From positions 1 through 45,490 of the forward strand of contig JACQWK010000649.1 in the NCBI GenBank assembly GCA_016209525.1: 45,490 bases of DNA, given 5' to 3'. This document shows positions 4,338 through 14,661 of the stretch, piece after piece; the first letter of the stretch is position 1; each line of letters starts with the position of its first letter. Made by a program: the position numbers and the translations under genes. This DNA comes from Verrucomicrobiota bacterium. GTDB taxonomy: Bacteria > Verrucomicrobiota > Verrucomicrobiia > Limisphaerales > SIBE01. The notes under the pieces are model-generated. The model did not search any database and was not told the DNA's origin. It saw nothing but the letters and a program-made list of their open reading frames with translations.

Positions 4338-4485
4338 CGTAGCGGCGGGCGACTCGCCTGCCGTAGCGCCGGTGCGTCTCGCCCGGTGGACTCAGAGTGG
4401 AAGTGGGAGCGACTGCGAAATTTGCGGCCCGCACCGGGCGGCGAGACGCCCGCCCTTTGCGGCAGGTGAGACGTCCGCCGCTACG
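4338..4485. repeat. Inverted repeat element 'GTAGCGGCGGGCGACTCGCCTGCC ... GGCAGGTGAGACGTCCGCCGCTAC'
   Basis: Long inverted arms with inner CGGTGCGTCTCGCCCGGTG/CACCGGGCGGCGAGACG; right end overlaps the EIIC stop codon. Confidence 0.85.
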
Positions 4486-5776
4486 GACTCTTTATAGCGG
4501 CTTTCCCAAGCCGCTGCCGTTCGGCCGCCTTGGCAAAAGGGTAATAGACCAACATGGCAATCACGATCGAGAAAGCCCCCCAAACCGCGGCTTTCCAGTC
4601 CCCACCGGAAACCAAATAGTGCCCGATGATCGGCGGTGTCGTCCAAGGCACGTTGACGAAGGGCTTGTGGATTAGGTTCCAGTTCATGAGCAAATAACTG
4701 CCGGTCGTCAGGATGAGCGCGTTGAGGATGTACGGAATCATAAAAATGGGATTCAGCACGATGGGGAAGCCAAAGAAGATGGGTTCGTTGATGCCAAAAA
4801 TCTGCGTTGGCAGCGAGATGCGGCTAACTTTTCGAAAGCCAGGTTCCTTGGAGTTCCACATGATCAACGCCAGGGCAATGGTCGCTCCTGTTCCGCCGAC
4901 ATTCACGAAGCTGGTGAAAAAGCCGTAGGCCGTGACGTAGGGCAAAGGCTGCCCTTGCGTTGTCGCCTCGACGTTCGCGGCCAAGTACTGGAGAAAGATC
5001 GGAGCCACGATGGCATCCACGGCGTTGTCGCCATTGATGCCGACGGACCAAAGCATCGTGACCAGGAAGGCATAGACCAGGATGCCCGGTAATGTGTTCA
5101 AGGCGAACACGAGAGGTTTGAAAACCGTTTGCACGATGTGGTCGATATCCAAACCCCAGACAAATCGGATCACCCAGAAGGCCATGACGAGGAAGAACAA
5201 CGGGCTGAGAGAGAGAAACGACTCATAGACGATGGGCGGCACATTTTCGGGAAGCTTGATGACAATGTGTTTGTCGGTGAAAAATTTTTGAACGCGGACC
5301 GAAATCAGCGCAATGATGACGGCGGTAAAGAGGCCTTTGGAACCAAGGCCATCCATCGAGAGCGCCAGATCCTCCGGCTCGTTTCCCAGCCTGAGCTGGA
5401 TCATGAGAAAGATCAACGTGGCCATCGAGGCGCTCACGATGGCTTCCTGCTGGAACCGCTTTCCAAGGTCATAGCCGATCGAAAAGCAGACAAAGACGGC
5501 GAGCAGCCCGAAGGTGGCGGTCACCGGAACTTGAAGGAGTTGGAGGTACGGAGCGACGACTTTGTCCCAGCCAGTCACCGGCATGTACGACACGATCATG
5601 AAGACACCCCCAATGATCGTGAGTGGCACCACCGACACCATCCCGGCGCGGATGGCAGACATGTAGGTGTTCTCGCTGAGCGCGGTCAGCGCCGGCACGA
5701 CGCGGGTGTTCAGGAGGCCAGCTCCAGCATTCACATCGGCTCCTTTACCGGCGCAACGAGCAGGACGTTCTCTCAT
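4481..5776 (-). CDS. PTS sugar transporter EIIC (lactose/cellobiose type)
   Basis: Multiple TM segments; GINGDNAVDAIVAPIFLQYLAANVEA, TSFVNVGGTGATIALAL and FGINEPIFFGFPIVLNPIFMIPYIL are EIIC motifs. Confidence 0.9.
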   Translation of the reverse strand: MRERPARCAGKGADVNAGAGLLNTRVVPALTALSENTYMSAIRAGMVSVVPLTIIGGVFMIVSYMPVTGWDKVVAPYLQLLQVPVTATFGLLAVFVCFSIGYDLGKRFQQEAIVSASMATLIFLMIQLRLGNEPEDLALSMDGLGSKGLFTAVIIALISVRVQKFFTDKHIVIKLPENVPPIVYESFLSLSPLFFLVMAFWVIRFVWGLDIDHIVQTVFKPLVFALNTLPGILVYAFLVTMLWSVGINGDNAVDAIVAPIFLQYLAANVEATTQGQPLPYVTAYGFFTSFVNVGGTGATIALALIMWNSKEPGFRKVSRISLPTQIFGINEPIFFGFPIVLNPIFMIPYILNALILTTGSYLLMNWNLIHKPFVNVPWTTPPIIGHYLVSGGDWKAAVWGAFSIVIAMLVYYPFAKAAERQRLGKAAIKSP

Positions 5777-6139: not shown

Positions 6140-6187
6140 GTTTCCTTACGCGGCCCGCCGCTTCAAAGGGCCTGGCGGTATTATCCG

Positions 6188-6535
6188 GTGGTGGAGGCCG
6201 GAATTCAGGGCCGGGACACAGTTTATCGTGTGCGCCTTCTTTTGGATTCCGGCGCAGATTGCACAATGCTTCCCAAGTCGATGGGTGAGTTGGCGGGCGT
6301 TGACTTCAGCCGACTGCGGCGACTCAACGTCACCGGTGTGGAAGGTCGAGGCGTGAAAGCCTACTTGGGAATGGTCCACCTGCAGATTGCCGGGCTCGCG
6401 CTGCCGCCGATTCCCTGCCTCTACGGCTCGTCGGACAAGACCCCGTTGCTCCTTGGTCGAGAGGGTTTTTTCGACCTCTTCGACGTTAAATTCGACAACC
6501 GACGTAAGAGAGTTGTGTTGACGCAATTGTTCTGA
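6188..6535 (+). CDS. Retropepsin-like aspartic protease domain protein (5' end uncertain, possible frameshift near 6160-6180)
   Basis: LLLDSGADCTMLPKSM (DSGA catalytic motif) and PLLLGREGFFDLFDVKFDNRRKRVVLT typical of bacterial retropepsin-like proteins. Confidence 0.72.
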   Translation: MVEAGIQGRDTVYRVRLLLDSGADCTMLPKSMGELAGVDFSRLRRLNVTGVEGRGVKAYLGMVHLQIAGLALPPIPCLYGSSDKTPLLLGREGFFDLFDVKFDNRRKRVVLTQLF

Positions 6536-6599
6536 ATGTCTCACAGCTTGTGAATTTGCATGGCCGCGATCGGGTGTGATCGACCAAAAGTCGCCTGAC

Positions 6600-7838
6600 T
6601 CATCCAAGCCAGTCGCGGAGCTCCTTGCTGTTTTCGTACAACTTTTCGAAAGCACGGGCGATGTCATCCATGTCAGCGCGCGGGCCGAGAAGGAGGTTTT
6701 GTTCGAGCCAGATGCCTTGCTCGCGACAGATCAGATCGCTGTTCGGGCATTGGGTTTTGCGATAGTCCAACCTGGCGCGAGCCTTCGGCAGATACGGACC
6801 GAAGGCTTTGTTCCGAAACATCGGCTGTCGGTGGAGCGAAAATCCGTAACCATCCGAACAGGGGATGCCTTCCGCTCGGAGCGCCTGAAGCACCACCGAG
6901 CGCGGCGCACCGAATTCCTTGGGGTCCATTCGCAACATGAAGAGGTGGTGACTGTGCCGCGTGCAGTCAGGCGGTCGTTTTTGCGGATGCAGACCGGGCA
7001 AGCCGGCGATCTTACGCGCCAGGTATTGTCCGTTGCGGTCGCGAGTTTTGATCTGCTGCTCCAGACGGTCGAGTTGGGCGTTGAGGACGGCGCCTTGGAA
7101 TTCGCCCAGACGGTAATTGCCCGAAATGACGTGATGTTCGTACCACACCCCGTCCGGAATGCGTCCGCAGTTGTGAATGGATCGGCACGCCTCCGCGAGC
7201 GCGTCGTCCTTGGTAGTGATCATGCCGCCTTCCCCGGCCGTGAGGTTCTTGCTCGACTGGAACGAGAACGATCCCAGGTGGCCGATGGACCCGGCGGGAC
7301 GGTTCCGGTAAAGAGCCCCATGCGCGTGAGCGGCATCCTCTATGACGACCAACTTGCGCCTGTTTGCGATAGCCATGATGGCGTCCATGTCCGCAGGCTG
7401 GCCGGCGAAGTGAACTGGGATGATCGCCCGCGTGCGCGGCGTGACGGCGGCCTCGACCGCCTTGGGATCAAGGTTGAACGTGTCCAGGTCAATGTCCGCA
7501 AAAACGGGAACCGCATTGGCTTCGATCACCGCGGACGCGGTCGAGAAAAACGTGTACGGCGGGACAATGACTTCAACTTCGGCGCGGATTCCAGCGGCCA
7601 GCAGGGCGATGCGGAGCGAAACTGTGCCGTTGACGACAGCGATGCCATGTTTGCAGCCGTGCATGGCGGCGAAGCGCTTTTCGAATTCGGCGACCGCCGG
7701 TCCGTGCAGCCGGCCCCATTTGCCGCTGCGGAGCGTGCGAAGCAGCCGTTTTTCTTCCGACTTGCCGAAGACTGGCCAAGACGGAAATGGGCGGGTGCGG
7801 AGCGGCGTTCCGCCGAAGAGAGCGAGTTTTTGTGGCAT
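6600..7838 (-). CDS. DegT/DnrJ/EryC1/StrS family aminotransferase
   Basis: VVIEDAAHAHGALY, GSFSFQSSKNLTAGEGGMITT (PLP lysine region), N-terminal GGTPLRTRPFPSWP. Confidence 0.92.
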   Translation of the reverse strand: MPQKLALFGGTPLRTRPFPSWPVFGKSEEKRLLRTLRSGKWGRLHGPAVAEFEKRFAAMHGCKHGIAVVNGTVSLRIALLAAGIRAEVEVIVPPYTFFSTASAVIEANAVPVFADIDLDTFNLDPKAVEAAVTPRTRAIIPVHFAGQPADMDAIMAIANRRKLVVIEDAAHAHGALYRNRPAGSIGHLGSFSFQSSKNLTAGEGGMITTKDDALAEACRSIHNCGRIPDGVWYEHHVISGNYRLGEFQGAVLNAQLDRLEQQIKTRDRNGQYLARKIAGLPGLHPQKRPPDCTRHSHHLFMLRMDPKEFGAPRSVVLQALRAEGIPCSDGYGFSLHRQPMFRNKAFGPYLPKARARLDYRKTQCPNSDLICREQGIWLEQNLLLGPRADMDDIARAFEKLYENSKELRDWLG

Positions 7839-7840
7839 GA

Positions 7841-10800
7841 TCAGACCAACGCCCCTTGCGATTCACATTTCCATTCGAACGTGGAAGACTTCACCCGTTG
7901 ATAATTCGCGTCCAGTTCAGCCTGGAGGAGAATCAATGCGGTGAGACGGCGGGCGATTTGGGTCATTTCGCGCGCTTCATCCGGGGTCAATGCGCGCCCC
8001 AGAAGCTTCTCCTCTCGATACGATAGCCACTTCTTGAGGACCTGATAGCCGCCCAGAGTGTAGTCCCACACGGCTTGCGGCACGGCCTCCCAACAAGTGG
8101 AATCATTAAGCCAAACATCGAGTCCATCGCTTCCGTGAGGAGAAAGCCTGCCTTTGGACGGCATGACGATGCCGCCTTTGCCGGCAATGCCCCAGCCCGC
8201 CGTGACCTTCAAATCTGAGCCGTGCAGCTTCGCGACGCGGCGCAATTCTTCGCGGACATTGCCGGTGGTCACGCCGGACACGGGGTTTTCCGGATCGAGC
8301 AAGGCGGCGACCTGTCGGCCCATTTCAGCGCTGGCTTTGAGCACTTCGCGCTTCTTTGGCAATGGGACGCGGGGCCAGTCCTGACGCAGCGCGCCGGCGT
8401 TTTCCAAGCGATAGCCGGGGGCATGCAGCGTGGCGACGATGTGGAAGAACAAGGCTTCGGGCGCGGTACCCAGCTTCGCAAGGTAGCCGGAGGCGAGGGG
8501 TGAAAGGTTTGGCCGCGGCTCGCAGTCGCTGCCTGTGCCGCCGCCGTTCATTTCGTGAGGCGAGAAGAGCTCGGGGGTTTCACGTAGTGCACTTGGCTCG
8601 CGTCGCGCTGGATCGTCGCGGAGGTAAAGTGGAATTCCGCGGGCGCCGCTATCCATGAAATTAAGGTCGGTTAGTAACCGCGTAATAATCGGAGGTTCGA
8701 TCCGGTTCTTCCGCGTCCGCCCCGTAGTAAACAGCCAGATATTGCGGGCGAACACTTGCTCCACGTAATCGCTGCGCCTTTCGTCCAACAGCTTGGTCGC
8801 CGGCTGCCAATAGAGCCAGCGATGGTCGAACGGCCGGTAGGCGTAACGCAGGATGCGCCCTGAGCCGTAGCCCAGCGGCAACAACATCTCGCGAACCTTC
8901 CTGGCTTCAAAGCGTCTGGTCGTTGCCATCAGGCACGCGGCGAATTCCTTCACCTGCTCGTCGCTAACCTTCGGATCGAAGTAACGATGCATTCGCCGTT
9001 CCAGTTCTGTTTGCCGGATGCTGACGAGGGCTTCATCCCGGCTGGTCTTGACGCCGGGATACGACACCGGCAACAAGGCGGGCAGCTTCGGCCACCTGAA
9101 ATAGCCCCGGCTGACGACGCTAGGCACGAACGTTAGACCGAGCTCGGCGCGCGGCCTAAGCTTCATGTAACCTCGCCCGCTCTTCTCCAGGAGCGACTCC
9201 TCGAGGTCCGCCCGTTTGGTCTTTCCCCAGAAGTGCCGGAAGCGCAATTCCTGCGAAGCAGCCGAAGGCGCAAGTCTCTGGCTCTTCCTGCGCTCCTTCT
9301 GAGAGGGAGCTTCCTTACCTCGGTTGCGACGAACAAGCAGCGCGATCGCGGTGCCCACTTGAATGCCTTCGCGATTGAATTCGGTGCTAAAGACGCTTGG
9401 ATCTGGTTTGCCTTCGGGAGTCAGCTTGCCAGTCTTGTATTTGTCGCCATTGAGGCAGTCGATGGCAATCACATCGAAGGCCTGCAGAAAGCGTTCCCTC
9501 ATACCTGGATGGCTCAATCCGTCGAGCCACGAGTAATTAGAGATAAAGCACACGACGCCTTCGCCGGTTTTCTCCGCGATCTGCCGCTCGGCCATGCGGT
9601 AGAACCGCACGTAGAGATCGTTTAGGCCCTGGCCTTGCGGCGATGGGCAGCCCGAGGTATGAACCTCGCGATAAGCGTCGCTCAGGTCGCGCTCTTCGCT
9701 CACCGCGATGCCGGCAAACCCGCTGTACGGCGGATTACCGATAATGACGAGGATCCGCTTGTCTTGCTTGACGTGATTGGCGGCATCGCGCTCGGCTTCA
9801 AGTTCGCGCATCACGATCTGTTTTGGATCACGCGCGGGTACCCAGCCGGTGAGGGCGTTGGTGAGATAGACGGCGGCGCGTTCCTGGTCGCGCTCTTCCA
9901 GCGGCGCTCCCAGCTTTTGCAGCAGCAAGCCGAGTTGGAGGTGGGAAATGACGAACGGTGCCGGCAGCAACTCGAAGCCGAAGATTCGCTCGCGCACGGC
10001 TTTCTTCACTTCGAAGGCCGCTTGGCTTTCGCCCAGTGCCGCTTCCTCGGCGTGATATTGGTGGATTTTACGCAGCGTCTCAACCAGATAAGCACCGGTG
10101 CCACAGCACGGATCAAGCACCAGCACGCCGGGATCCGCCAGGCCGGCGGGCAGCCCGAACTGCTCGCGCAACGTCCGGTCCACGCGCGCGACCATGTAGC
10201 GGACGATTTCCTCCGGCGTGTACCAGACGCCAAAATCCTCGCGAAGTTGCGGATCGAAGGCTTCAAGGAACGGTTCGTAAAAGTACTGAACGGCGTGTTC
10301 TTCGGCGAAGCGCTCGAAGAAGGCTGGGCGGACAACACGGTGCAGCGTGGCCGCGGCCCAATCGAGCGGCTCCTCCAGATGCAGTCCGGCGACGTTCGCG
10401 GGGCTGGCCAGTTCGTGAAACAGGCGCTGGAGCACCGGGAGGCGAAGATTGAAGGCCGACGTGCGCCACTCGAAGCGATCCGTCCGCGCGGGCCTTTCCT
10501 TGTGCCACAGTACCCAGGCGGAAAACACCCCGTAGAAAAGCGTCTGCACCAGTGTCGAACGAAAGAAGTGCAAGCCGCGCTCGCTCTCGATCGTCAGGCC
10601 GAGCGCATGCTCCAGCGCGGCGCGAAGATTCTTGAGCGCGTCGAGTTCGGCGCTTTCCACGCGGCGAAGCGCGGCGCGAGCGTAGCTGGCGAGGAAGAAC
10701 GCCAAGTCCTGTGGATTTTCCAGCGGCGCGGGGGTGAGCATCACCCGCTGCAAGAAATCGATGAGCGCCGGGCCGAATTGTTCCGCCGACTTGCGCGGAT

Positions 10801-11269
10801 GCGCCGCGAGTTGCCAGAACGCGGACTCGCTTTCAGCAAAGCAGAATCGTTCGCCTCGGACGATTCGTCCGTTTTCGCCTCGCGTGAGAAGCAAGAACGA
10901 ACGGTAGTTGGTCACAAGCGCCTGGCCGTAGTGTTTGGCGTAGCCGCGCACCTGTTCGGTTTCGGCGACCGCCAACAAGTCGGCGTCCACGGCTTTCACT
11001 TCGATCACCCCGCGCGAGGGGGTGAGACCACGCAGCGGCTCGTCTTCGGGTGAGCCTTTGAGCTGGTCCGGCGTGAAGAAACCGCCATCGGGACAGCCCG
11101 CGCCGCTGTTGTTGAGCTGAATCAGACAGCGGACTTTGGGCTTGAGCGGGTGGCCGGCAGCGTTGAGAAGATTGGCCAGCGCCGGGTAGCCGGAGGTCTC
11201 TTTTGCGACTGCGCCGGATGCGCGCAGGGCGGCGAGTTCTTCAAGATAACTCTCCAACGGGCTCGTCAT
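7841..11269 (-). CDS. Single-chain N6-adenine methyltransferase/restriction enzyme (Type ISP / Type IIG-like, no helicase)
   Basis: MTase motif I DPCCGTGAYL, motif IV NPPYSGF; N-terminal PDGGFF...GVIEVKA resembles PD-(D/E)XK; C-terminal YRPFDHRWLYW / VWDYTLGGYQVLKKWLSYRE matches Type ISP specificity regions. Confidence 0.88.
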   Translation of the reverse strand: MTSPLESYLEELAALRASGAVAKETSGYPALANLLNAAGHPLKPKVRCLIQLNNSGAGCPDGGFFTPDQLKGSPEDEPLRGLTPSRGVIEVKAVDADLLAVAETEQVRGYAKHYGQALVTNYRSFLLLTRGENGRIVRGERFCFAESESAFWQLAAHPRKSAEQFGPALIDFLQRVMLTPAPLENPQDLAFFLASYARAALRRVESAELDALKNLRAALEHALGLTIESERGLHFFRSTLVQTLFYGVFSAWVLWHKERPARTDRFEWRTSAFNLRLPVLQRLFHELASPANVAGLHLEEPLDWAAATLHRVVRPAFFERFAEEHAVQYFYEPFLEAFDPQLREDFGVWYTPEEIVRYMVARVDRTLREQFGLPAGLADPGVLVLDPCCGTGAYLVETLRKIHQYHAEEAALGESQAAFEVKKAVRERIFGFELLPAPFVISHLQLGLLLQKLGAPLEERDQERAAVYLTNALTGWVPARDPKQIVMRELEAERDAANHVKQDKRILVIIGNPPYSGFAGIAVSEERDLSDAYREVHTSGCPSPQGQGLNDLYVRFYRMAERQIAEKTGEGVVCFISNYSWLDGLSHPGMRERFLQAFDVIAIDCLNGDKYKTGKLTPEGKPDPSVFSTEFNREGIQVGTAIALLVRRNRGKEAPSQKERRKSQRLAPSAASQELRFRHFWGKTKRADLEESLLEKSGRGYMKLRPRAELGLTFVPSVVSRGYFRWPKLPALLPVSYPGVKTSRDEALVSIRQTELERRMHRYFDPKVSDEQVKEFAACLMATTRRFEARKVREMLLPLGYGSGRILRYAYRPFDHRWLYWQPATKLLDERRSDYVEQVFARNIWLFTTGRTRKNRIEPPIITRLLTDLNFMDSGARGIPLYLRDDPARREPSALRETPELFSPHEMNGGGTGSDCEPRPNLSPLASGYLAKLGTAPEALFFHIVATLHAPGYRLENAGALRQDWPRVPLPKKREVLKASAEMGRQVAALLDPENPVSGVTTGNVREELRRVAKLHGSDLKVTAGWGIAGKGGIVMPSKGRLSPHGSDGLDVWLNDSTCWEAVPQAVWDYTLGGYQVLKKWLSYREEKLLGRALTPDEAREMTQIARRLTALILLQAELDANYQRVKSSTFEWKCESQGALV

Positions 11270-11347: not shown

Positions 11348-11977
11348 TCACACCTTCAATGCTTTTCCCATGTAAATGCAGCCATCGTCCCCCGAGCCGA
11401 TTCGGATCAACTCCCAGAAGCCGAGACGCGTGTAGAATCCAACCGCGGGCGTGTTGAGCGTGCTCACGCCCAGATGCGCGCCTGGAGAACCACGGCGGCG
11501 AAGTGTCGCAATTACGTGTTCGAGCATCCGCCGCCCATAACCGCGGCCCCGCGCCCGTTCCAATAGATCGATGTGCAGATGGGAAGGATAAGCGTCGTAC
11601 GGTTCTGGGCAGAAGTAATCCGGGTGATGATACCCGTGATAAACCTGCTGAACCCGGGTCCACTGGCTTGGCTCGCCTTGCGGCGCAGGAAATCGGGCGC
11701 ACAGATTGGGACGCCACTCCGACTCATAGCGTGCGTAAAAGGTTCGCGAATCCAAGGCGCCGAGGGCGTAACCACAAACGCCTTGCTCGTCTTCCAGAAT
11801 GAGACTCAGCTCCGGCTCATACGCGAGATACGGCCCGACAAAAATTCGGCCCAACGCGTCGGGATCTTCGCGGTAGTACGGTTCGCCATCCTTGCCGTGG
11901 TCGCCGGTCTTCAGGCAAACGTAGTAGGCGCCCGGTTCATCGCCAGGCCGAGCGGGGCGAATGGTGAAATCGCTCAT
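11348..11977 (-). CDS. GNAT N-acetyltransferase resembling the HAT-like domain of O-GlcNAcase
   Basis: IRPARPGDEPGAYYVCLKTGDHG, FVGPYLAYEPELSLILEDEQGVCGYALGALD, RARGRGYGRRMLEHVI, NTPAVGFYTRLGF. Confidence 0.88.
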   Translation of the reverse strand: MSDFTIRPARPGDEPGAYYVCLKTGDHGKDGEPYYREDPDALGRIFVGPYLAYEPELSLILEDEQGVCGYALGALDSRTFYARYESEWRPNLCARFPAPQGEPSQWTRVQQVYHGYHHPDYFCPEPYDAYPSHLHIDLLERARGRGYGRRMLEHVIATLRRRGSPGAHLGVSTLNTPAVGFYTRLGFWELIRIGSGDDGCIYMGKALKV

Positions 11978-12150
11978 GGGGTAGGAATCGGTGAAGGTTC
12001 GAGTTGATGGTCAGTATGCGCCATCCCGCGGCCTAGCAGCGGCGATCGCTTTTTAGTGGTGCAGTCTGAATTTTCGAGTCAAGACCGAGCTTCGTTTGTC
12101 TGCGCACGTTGGGCGCATATCAATTGCCTGGATCTGCAGACTCGGATTTC

Positions 12151-12304
12151 ATTAGCACCCGGCTTCAGCCGGGTGGTCTTGAAGGCCACGATCGGGAAAC
12201 GGTTTCCGACCGTTTTCCTCGGTGCGCGAGTCTTTCTCAAAAGCCGTTAAAAACGGCCACACGCTGCACTTTCGGTGAACACCGGGCTTAAGCCCGGTGC
12301 TAAT
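12151..12304. repeat. Inverted element 'ATTAGCACCCGGCTTCAGCCGGGT ... ACCGGGCTTAAGCCCGGTGCTAAT'
   Basis: Terminal inverted ATTAGCACC/GGTGCTAAT plus inner hairpins; lies between the GH84 and GNAT genes. Confidence 0.85.
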
Positions 12305-12328
12305 CAAATCCAGAGCTACGGCTCGAAT

Positions 12329-13696
12329 TCACGCTGTCCCGCAACGGAACGTCCCATTGGCTTGCTGGACTAACAATCGTTGCAGCCGAGCTGCCATCCC
12401 GCCACGATACGTGCCGGCCAAGTGGAAATCCGAATTGAATGAAGCGTCGCCTGAAGTCCCGGGATGTTCGGACTTGAATTCAACGTAACGCTCCAGCAAA
12501 TCGAGCTCTTCCCGGAGTTCCCAGATGCGGCGGCTCAACGCGTGGAACAATGGGCGCTGACGAAGTTCGGTCATCCGGACGCAGAACTCACGCAACCGCG
12601 CGGCTAGTCGCCGTAGAGCCGAGGCTCCGTCACCCCATTCGGCGGGATCGCGGTCGAGCAATGTCTGCGCGAGGCCGCAGAGTTCCTCGGCCTCCGGACC
12701 TTCCTCATGGGGCAAATAATAGCAGTCTCCGAAGAGGATCAAGTCCTCCAGCGTCACGGGCTGGCCGATGGTCGCGAACCGGGGCAGCCATTCTTGCAAG
12801 GCCGCCAAGTAGGCTTGGCGGGCATCCCAGTTGCCCTCGCAACGCACGAACGCAGCGAGCGTGCGGAGCGGCACGTAATTCAGCGGAAACTCGCAGTTCG
12901 GATTGCTGAGCAAGCCGCTCACGACGCCGCGCAATTCCGGCGGACGTCCGGCGTAGGGACCGCAGAAAAACCGGCGGCCATCATAATCGTTGGCGTGCAG
13001 ATTGTCCCAGATGAGCGGCTTCCGGCGGAGCACCGCCCCCAATTCTTTCGCGTGCGCCGCCGTGATCTCCCGGGAAATGATTTCGGGCCCCGTCCAAAAG
13101 ACATCGATTCCCGGCAACAACTCCCGTCCGAGCGTAGCCAGGTAATCTTCCCCGCCGAGTTTGCGTTCTGCCATCCGACCGCAATAGGCCGTTGGACAGA
13201 ACAGGAAGCGGCCATCAGGAGAACTCGCGCGAGTCCATTGGAACAGGGTATTCGCCACGTGGCATTGCGCTGAGGCCAGCGAGCCCCAACGCTTGACGTC
13301 TTCGGCATTCATGCAGTCGGGAATGTCATCGAAGAGCAATGCGAAATGCCGGCATCCCAACGACAGCATTTGTTCAAAACGCTTCGCCAAGCATTCGAGG
13401 TCGGCTTCGTTCCCGTAGTGGAGGTCCAATCCGGGGCTGAGCGCATAGATGAAGAGGATGTCCCGCTGCCGGCAAGCACGAACCAGGTCTCCAAGCGGTT
13501 CGGCTTCCGATGTGGAATAGAGCTCGCGCCAGACGGCGCGGTGTTTCAGGTCGTCCTTGGGCGCATAAAGATAAGTGTTCAAACCCCAAGCAGCCATCCA
13601 ATCGAACAACTCGAAGCGTTCGGCCTGCGACCAAGGCTGTCCGTAGAAGCCTTCGATCACTCCGGCCAGGAAGTCTCCTGTCCCGCATTGTGCCAT
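12329..13696 (-). CDS. Beta-N-acetylglucosaminidase, GH84, O-GlcNAcase-like
   Basis: GVIEGFYGQPWSQAERFELFDWMAAWGLNTYLYAPKDDLKHR, FALLFDDIPD (catalytic Asp pair), FLFCPTAYCG, WDNLHANDYDGRRFFCGPY, NPNCEFPLNYV. ATG at 13696 preferred over TTG at 13705. Confidence 0.93.
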   Translation of the reverse strand: MAQCGTGDFLAGVIEGFYGQPWSQAERFELFDWMAAWGLNTYLYAPKDDLKHRAVWRELYSTSEAEPLGDLVRACRQRDILFIYALSPGLDLHYGNEADLECLAKRFEQMLSLGCRHFALLFDDIPDCMNAEDVKRWGSLASAQCHVANTLFQWTRASSPDGRFLFCPTAYCGRMAERKLGGEDYLATLGRELLPGIDVFWTGPEIISREITAAHAKELGAVLRRKPLIWDNLHANDYDGRRFFCGPYAGRPPELRGVVSGLLSNPNCEFPLNYVPLRTLAAFVRCEGNWDARQAYLAALQEWLPRFATIGQPVTLEDLILFGDCYYLPHEEGPEAEELCGLAQTLLDRDPAEWGDGASALRRLAARLREFCVRMTELRQRPLFHALSRRIWELREELDLLERYVEFKSEHPGTSGDASFNSDFHLAGTYRGGMAARLQRLLVQQANGTFRCGTA

Positions 13697-13701
13697 GCTT
13701 G

Positions 13702-14661
13702 TCAACCCAGCAACTGCTCGAGGCCACGACGTTCCGCCAACGTCATGGGGGTCAATTCGCGGACAATGCGCACATTGGTCATCAGTTGCTCGATCGACGC
13801 CACGCCGATCACCGCCACGGAGATCGGCAGGCTCAGCGTGTACCGGATCAGCGACGAGGCCTCGACCTGGTGGGCCGTTTCATCGTGGTAAGGCCGGAGG
13901 ACTTTCTGCAGCGGATTCCCGGCCACCAAACAGCCGTTGCCGCCGCCCATGACTTTCATCGCGATGACGCCCATTTGCTTTCGATTTGCCAACGGAAGCA
14001 AGCCCTCCCGGTAAGCCTGCCGCCGCGACACGGGATTCAACGTGGTGAGGATCGTGTCGAACTCGTAGCGTTCGACGGCTTCAAGGAGTCTGGCGGCGCT
14101 GTCATGTCCGGTCAGCCCGATGAAACGGGTGACTTTTTGGTCGCGCAGTTTTCGCAGCGCGGTCAGCACTCCGCCGGGTTTTTCCCACGCATCGAGATCT
14201 TCATTGGCGGAGATGCCGTGGATCTGGATCAAGTCCACGCGGTCCGTGCGCAGGCGTTTCAGGCTCTGCTCAAGGCTTCGAAACGTGCCATCGTGGGTCC
14301 GGTCTCCGGTTTTGCTAGCAAGGAAAACTTCTCCGCGGCGCCGGGCCAGCACTTGCCCGTAGTTGGTTTCCGATTGGCCGTTGTTGTACGACGGGGCCGT
14401 GTCGAAGTAGGTGATGCCCAAGTCCAGGGCGGTTTCGGCCAGCGCCACCGGATCGTGCGCGGCCGAGGGCGGGAGTTGCATTCCAATAACACCTCCCAGG
14501 GCCAGCGTGCTCACCTTTATGCCGGTCTGGCCGAGCGGACGCTGAGGCAACTTCGCGCGAGCCGCGGCTGGCGGCGGCGAATTCTCCGCAGCGAAGGCGG
14601 GCAATGATCCGCTTGCCGCGCAAACGGCGGTCACTGATTTGAGGAATTTACGTCGATTCAT
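13702..14661 (-). CDS. Aldo/keto reductase, Tat-type signal
   Basis: MNRRKFLKSVTAV leader; RPLGQTGIKVSTLALGG, GITYFDTAPSYNNGQSE, DRVDLIQIHG. Confidence 0.92.
   Translation of the reverse strand: MNRRKFLKSVTAVCAASGSLPAFAAENSPPPAAARAKLPQRPLGQTGIKVSTLALGGVIGMQLPPSAAHDPVALAETALDLGITYFDTAPSYNNGQSETNYGQVLARRRGEVFLASKTGDRTHDGTFRSLEQSLKRLRTDRVDLIQIHGISANEDLDAWEKPGGVLTALRKLRDQKVTRFIGLTGHDSAARLLEAVERYEFDTILTTLNPVSRRQAYREGLLPLANRKQMGVIAMKVMGGGNGCLVAGNPLQKVLRPYHDETAHQVEASSLIRYTLSLPISVAVIGVASIEQLMTNVRIVRELTPMTLAERRGLEQLLG

Follow-up and report, generated by a model that had tools for sequence, protein, structure and literature searches.

The closest described counterpart of the genes considered here comes from Oceanicola granulosus, in which OgOGA and then OgpAT were reported by Rao et al. 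in 2013 as an operon, its order being likened to that of the domains in human O-GlcNAcase (OGA) (PMC3814719). In eukaryotic OGA the histone acetyltransferase (HAT)-like domain, or pHAT, has lost its P-loop and acetyl-CoA is not bound (PMC12494797). Here we analyze a stretch of 45,490 nucleotides from a Verrucomicrobiota bacterium (contig JACQWK010000649.1, assembly GCA_016209525.1), called the window below, which encodes an OGA-type enzyme of glycoside hydrolase family 84 (GH84) next to a GNAT acetyltransferase related to the OGA HAT-like domain (hereafter HAT). An earlier note, made from the letters of the window, had described the pair as a split O-GlcNAcase, and the two open reading frames (ORFs) that it listed, with the motifs that it quoted, are present as claimed:

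12329–13696, minus strand: OGA-type GH84 beta-N-acetylglucosaminidase with a helical stalk (455 aa, ATG at 13696)
11348–11977, minus strand: OGA-HAT-like GNAT acetyltransferase of the OgpAT/SsAT family (209 aa, P-loop RARGRGYG intact)

This two-gene arrangement is not new in kind, because the same one was reported from O. granulosus, and a reading of the locus type as newly seen is not supported. We find, however, that the window pair is part of a GH84–HAT–(DegT)–EIIC operon, which comprises an aminotransferase (DegT) and a sugar permease (EIIC), and that in two planctomycete relatives the same domains lie in one chain.

The GH84 protein contains the family's catalytic domain (PF07555, 1.2e-80, 271 bits against a cut-off of 25). 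Its best match in the PDB is human OGA (6e-109), well ahead of BT_4395 (~1e-38) and NagJ (~1e-36), and 136 of 269 barrel residues are identical to the human enzyme (51%). The catalytic Asp pair of human OGA, D174 and D175, and eight further active-site positions (G67, K98, C215, Y219, W278, N280, D285 and N313) are all kept. A helical stalk follows the barrel, as the C-terminal third of the protein gives a separate match to the human OGA stalk (phmmer domain 311–448, independent E-value 5.5e-8). The N-terminus begins MAQCGTGDFLAGVIEGFYG and shows no apparent signal peptide, so that the enzyme is likely cytosolic; an alternative TTG start lies at 13705, three codons upstream of the ATG.

The GNAT protein is a member of the OGA HAT-like family. 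In phmmer searches it matched OgpAT (3zj0, 2.8e-42), SsAT (4bmh, 6.9e-39), the pHAT of Trichoplax OGA (6r45, 8.6e-28) and human OGA (5.5e-24), whereas the first generic GNAT appeared at 4.9e-5, about 19 orders of magnitude behind the family members. Its AlphaFold2 model (predicted local distance difference test score, 96.2) gave the same ranking in Foldseek, with template modelling (TM) scores of 0.92/0.95 for 3zj0, 0.87 for 4bmh and 0.86 for 6r45 against ~0.55 for generic GNATs, and strands 3 and 4 are separated in it by the additional helices of the HAT-like fold (residues 77–95 and 108–117). Sequence and structure thus both uphold the expectation that OGA HAT-like domains, and not generic GNATs, are the closer relatives of this protein. 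Searches of other Verrucomicrobiota yielded nothing beyond a separate, weaker GNAT clade (L003–L009), ~27% identical to the window HAT and with no GH84 gene within the short loci examined. HAT homologues with 35% and 27% identity are also encoded on the human faecal phage contigs MT835709 and MT835476, neither of which is annotated.

The acetyl-CoA site is kept in the window HAT (P-loop R143/G146/G148, T24, H135, D137 and N175). In a set of 90 bacterial HATs, the residues of the OgpAT acetyl-CoA site (T25, H135, N175 and P-loop positions 143/146/148) are nearly invariant, as are H133/H135/W88/Y50. The window protein has R in place of Q at position 143, which the P-loop consensus [Gln/Arg]-x-x-Gly-x-[Gly/Ala] permits (PMC3814719). 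Most residues of the acetyl-CoA site are gone from human and Trichoplax OGA, in agreement with the published absence of acetyl-CoA binding. The suggestion that the bacterial partner could be an active acetyltransferase is therefore supported by the residues retained.

A genome scan with eight HAT queries yielded 80 loci. The window's clade accounts for 39 of them, 35 with room upstream, and in 29 the GH84 gene immediately precedes HAT on its strand, so that the adjacency is conserved in many relatives. Among the 34 loci with room downstream, an EIIC-type permease follows HAT in 24 and DegT comes after HAT in 10; the coordinates of the two ORFs therefore do not bound the system, to which the aminotransferase and the transporter also belong. 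GH84 and HAT share a 4-bp stop/start overlap (ATGA) in 11 clade loci and also in two planctomycete loci (L151 and L152), and the HAT–EIIC pairing is kept in five loci where GH84 is not adjacent. The GH84–HAT order is conserved across Verrucomicrobiota, Planctomycetota and one Trueperaceae genome. An alternative operon in L052, L074, L151 and L152 has sugar ABC permeases, then GH84–HAT and then an SIS gene, with a BadF kinase also present in L052, and L047 reads GH84–HAT–BadF–SIS. An identity of the SIS neighbour as NagS was considered and dropped, since distant homologues are inactive as NagS (PMC12680351). In a Pedosphaera genome an extra ORF of HAT length (L034:7348-7971, 207 aa), possibly a duplicated HAT, lies between GH84 and HAT. 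The Trueperaceae locus L054 encodes a HAT ORF (7629-8621) with an N-terminal segment like the OGA stalk and no GH84 barrel, adjoining an SIS gene and a gene of the phosphotriesterase family; the latter had been a candidate for a split GH84 barrel and was ruled out as such by its family.

In the window GH84 and HAT are separate ORFs, and a single chain of both was found only in two relatives. L048 (Planctomycetia, 665 aa) and L055 (Planctomycetaceae, 661 aa, ending at the contig edge) each carry GH84, stalk and HAT within a single reading frame that has no internal stop. Over 659 residues the two proteins share 72% identity, and their occurrence in different assemblies makes sequencing error an unlikely explanation. 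Both keep the acetyl-CoA P-loop, and L048, from its stalk through its HAT, can be aligned to human OGA without a break and in the same order. AlphaFold2 modelled the L048 barrel and stalk well and its HAT with low confidence (alignment of 11 rows). Within the phylum of L048, 7 of 359 genomes matched; besides L048, three matched in both halves (G1178, G1007 and G978), and on inspection each has two genes, including G1178, where a 723-aa frame had suggested a third fusion and proved to be two ORFs. A search of the open literature, with subscription literature and preprints outside it, found no paper joining O-GlcNAcase, planctomycetes and acetyltransferase. One-chain GH84–stalk–HAT proteins in bacteria appear to be new, since every description of this architecture that we found concerns eukaryotes.

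In the window itself, the remaining parts of the locus are:

11978–12328, minus strand: GH84–HAT gap, 351 bp, with two 18-bp palindromes (12157–12174 and 12281–12298)
7841–11269, minus strand: type ISP restriction-modification gene between HAT and DegT (PF18135, 8.3e-45)
6600–7838, minus strand: DegT/DnrJ/EryC1/StrS pyridoxal phosphate-dependent aminotransferase (PF01041, 1.7e-104)
6146–6667, minus strand: 173-aa protein, family not assigned, window-specific, between DegT and EIIC
4481–5776, minus strand: orphan phosphotransferase system (PTS) EIIC of the lactose/cellobiose/diacetylchitobiose family (PF02378, 1.4e-46; TIGR00410, 307 bits, cut-off 236)

The gap is far wider than the GH84–HAT gap of most relatives, and its palindrome pattern was matched four times (two sites, each on both strands) where 0.05 matches would be expected. 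The neighbours had been called possibly co-expressed; they share a strand, but co-transcription is a less secure assumption for the window pair than for its counterparts in relatives, because the operon is interrupted and the gap is wide and holds palindromes. The ISP gene, which was not found at the HAT–DegT position in any relative's locus compared, is lineage-specific and outside the function of the operon. DegT copies 70–80% identical to that of the window stand directly after HAT in eight other loci. The 173-aa protein matched no Pfam family, and tblastn at the threshold applied found no counterpart of it in the loci of relatives. The genome (93% complete) contains an EI-like domain, and a full PTS permease was not found, with neither PTS_IIB nor Lac-type PTS_IIA detected; for this reason the EIIC may be a non-phosphorylating importer. 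An orphan EIIC is conserved in many Verrucomicrobiota. At the window edge, 156–2236 encodes a ZnuA-like binding protein and an ABC ATPase, likely for zinc uptake.

Catalysis by GH84 enzymes uses the acetamido group of the substrate, so that a glycoside lacking its N-acetyl group would be expected to stay intact. The fungal GH3–GNAT protein RmNag acetylates glucosamine (GlcN) and (GlcN)2, cleaving the latter only with acetyl-CoA, and bacterial glucosaminide N-acetyltransferases have been described as acting ahead of glucosaminidase cleavage (PMC4680927). The GH84–HAT–importer operons, the stop/start overlaps and the fusions fit the same logic. We consider it about an even chance that the window pair belongs to a cytosolic amino-sugar utilization operon in which HAT N-acetylates GlcN units before cleavage by GH84. 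The EIIC-type protein, or elsewhere a sugar ABC transporter, would import small glycosides containing GlcN or N-acetylglucosamine (GlcNAc), and HAT would N-acetylate the GlcN residue using acetyl-CoA. GH84, acting through the substrate's own 2-acetamido group, would then free GlcNAc, which would be phosphorylated and degraded by enzymes (GlcNAc kinase, NagA, NagB or SIS-type) whose genes lie inside or outside the operon. The families of the proteins, the residues kept, the conservation of the operon and the fusions in bacteria are observed; we infer the acceptor, the transport substrate, the order of steps and the evolutionary direction. Judged from the operon context, the acceptor would be GlcN or a GlcN-terminated glycoside, and the operon thereby points to a definite acceptor class, amino sugars.

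Several observations weigh against this proposal. The operon is interrupted in the window itself, where the GH84–HAT gap is long, and the DegT partner present in some loci fits biosynthesis equally. Pooling the 134 proteins encoded beside 38 stand-alone HAT loci brought out no dominant sugar family (largest family ≤4 members). This count rules out a universal amino-sugar context for HATs; such a context holds only for one alphaproteobacterial/Erwinia group and for the clade whose HATs are linked to GH84. Furthermore, of 38 genomes that have HAT without a neighbouring OGA-type GH84, 15 lacked any GH84 match at 1e-10. In 395 genomes of Alphaproteobacteria (the class of L082), the window GH84 query gave no match at 1e-50, a result that carries no weight because the search had no positive control.

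An alternative is a pathway in which HAT re-acetylates free GlcN released by other enzymes, so as to supply a kinase specific for GlcNAc, and leaves the GH84 substrate untouched. Plasmid-borne HATs without GH84 lie among ROK, Gfo/Idh and BadF (NagK-like) genes in Falsirhodobacter, Agrobacterium/Rhizobium, Duffyella and Microvirga; in Falsirhodobacter (L015) HAT adjoins nagB and a NagA-like gene, accompanied by a NagK-like BadF kinase and ROK, and at least one of ROK, Gfo/Idh and BadF neighbours HAT in four other loci. These neighbourhoods also count in favour of the amino-sugar operon proposed above, as do the HAT–EIIC loci without GH84; the L015 locus and those HAT–EIIC loci are likewise consistent with such salvage. 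However, the tight GH84–HAT linkage, the stop/start overlap and the two fusions suggest successive steps on one substrate, and we regard free-GlcN salvage as unlikely. WecE–WecD and PseC–PseH are aminotransferase/acetyltransferase pairs that make N-acetylated amino sugars. HAT and DegT could in the same way build such a sugar, which GH84 would trim or recycle. The position of DegT after HAT in the loci noted above and in the interrupted operon of the window, together with the resemblance of the window DegT to sugar 4-aminotransferases, would suit this scheme, but most operons that keep GH84, HAT and EIIC are without DegT, neither a nucleotide-sugar dehydratase nor a nucleotidyltransferase was seen among the genes examined, and importer plus hydrolase point to catabolism. 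We judge this biosynthetic route improbable.

The protein-directed role implied by the likeness to eukaryotic OGA fares no better. In bacterial O-GlcNAc cycling GH84 would deglycosylate proteins, and HAT would be a protein acetyltransferase or regulator. Every OGA active-site residue checked is kept, several GT41 (OGT family) proteins are encoded on five other contigs of the same genome, and a functional OGA together with a conserved OGT is known from Thermobaculum terrenum (PMC4683255). But the window contains no GT41 gene, and it is with a sugar transporter and with enzymes of amino-sugar metabolism that the genes are most constantly associated; where GH84 is not adjacent, HATs stay beside EIIC, which weakens the implied link to protein O-GlcNAc or histones. 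The acceptor tunnels of OgpAT and SsAT are narrow (PMC3814719, PMC3919268), and the authors of the SsAT study inferred a small polar acceptor (PMC3919268). Cycling of this kind seems to us quite improbable. That the adjacency is purely historical, a shared transfer unit of genes from different pathways, would agree with the occurrence of GH84 and HAT at different loci in several genomes. It is very hard to reconcile with an order conserved across three groups, with the overlaps and with two fusions, and we give it hardly any weight.

Amino-sugar utilization, as proposed above, also bears on the origin of eukaryotic OGA, which we addressed with trees containing one eukaryotic sequence for GH84 and two for HAT. 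Human OGA falls inside the bacterial OGA-type GH84 clade, sister to Neomarinimicrobiota sequences (support 98/86), and the L048/L055 fusions are on a different branch; a constraint placing human OGA with the fusions was marginally rejected (approximately unbiased test, p-AU 0.045). In the HAT tree the eukaryotic pHATs lie in a clade rich in GH84-linked genes (support 83/77, long branches), and the corresponding constraint was not rejected (p 0.276). Given these two outcomes, a planctomycete fusion independent of the eukaryotic one is likely, though not proven. The idea that this locus preserves a pre-fusion arrangement is plausible, being supported for the barrel, which nests among bacterial sequences, and weak for the HAT half with its modest support and long branches. 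Tentatively, and with less than even confidence, we suggest that eukaryotic OGA may have arisen by fusion of this operon pair, its tail being a relic of an amino-sugar N-acetyltransferase with a reused acceptor cleft, and that the same fusion was made separately in planctomycetes, where the acetyltransferase is apparently active. On the amino-sugar proposal, the eukaryotic pHAT would be a decayed descendant of a small-molecule sugar acetyltransferase and not of a histone acetyltransferase, and if this is true the ancestry of the OGA tail shifts from histone acetylation to sugar metabolism. The loci supply separate, overlapping and fused bacterial GH84/HAT pairs with the acetyl-CoA site kept, as testable proteins.

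Compared with described systems, the locus is nearest to OgOGA–OgpAT, with which it shares a separate OGA-like GH84 followed by an OGA-HAT-like GNAT with an intact acetyl-CoA site, the two genes of that pair being immediate neighbours; OgpAT and the window HAT are 43% identical. In the portion of that report consulted no EIIC/DegT operon is described; there is no fusion, and its authors left the acceptor unidentified (PMC3814719). SsAT of Streptomyces sviceus belongs to the same GNAT family, binds acetyl-CoA and has a tunnel-like acceptor pocket (PMC3919268), but no GH84 context is reported for it and it falls in a separate Streptomyces clade of the HAT tree. RmNag of Rhizomucor miehei likewise couples a beta-N-acetylglucosaminidase to a GNAT whose activity is needed for (GlcN)2 cleavage (PMC4680927), and differs in being GH3 and not GH84, in its tandem GNAT region and in being eukaryotic. 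Ngs1 of Candida albicans has a glucosaminidase-like domain and a C-terminal GNAT, a layout that its authors note to be OGA-like, but this GNAT acts on histones (PMC5063960). Human and Trichoplax OGA combine a GH84 barrel, a helical stalk and a HAT-like domain, each from the family of its bacterial counterpart (PMC12494797), and the L048/L055 proteins share their one-chain domain order, whereas the bacterial HATs keep the P-loop that the eukaryotic pHAT is without. What is new beyond these precedents is membership in an operon with (DegT)–EIIC, the bacterial fusions, and the location of some HATs beside nagA, nagB, GlcNAc-kinase, ROK, SIS and sugar-ABC genes.
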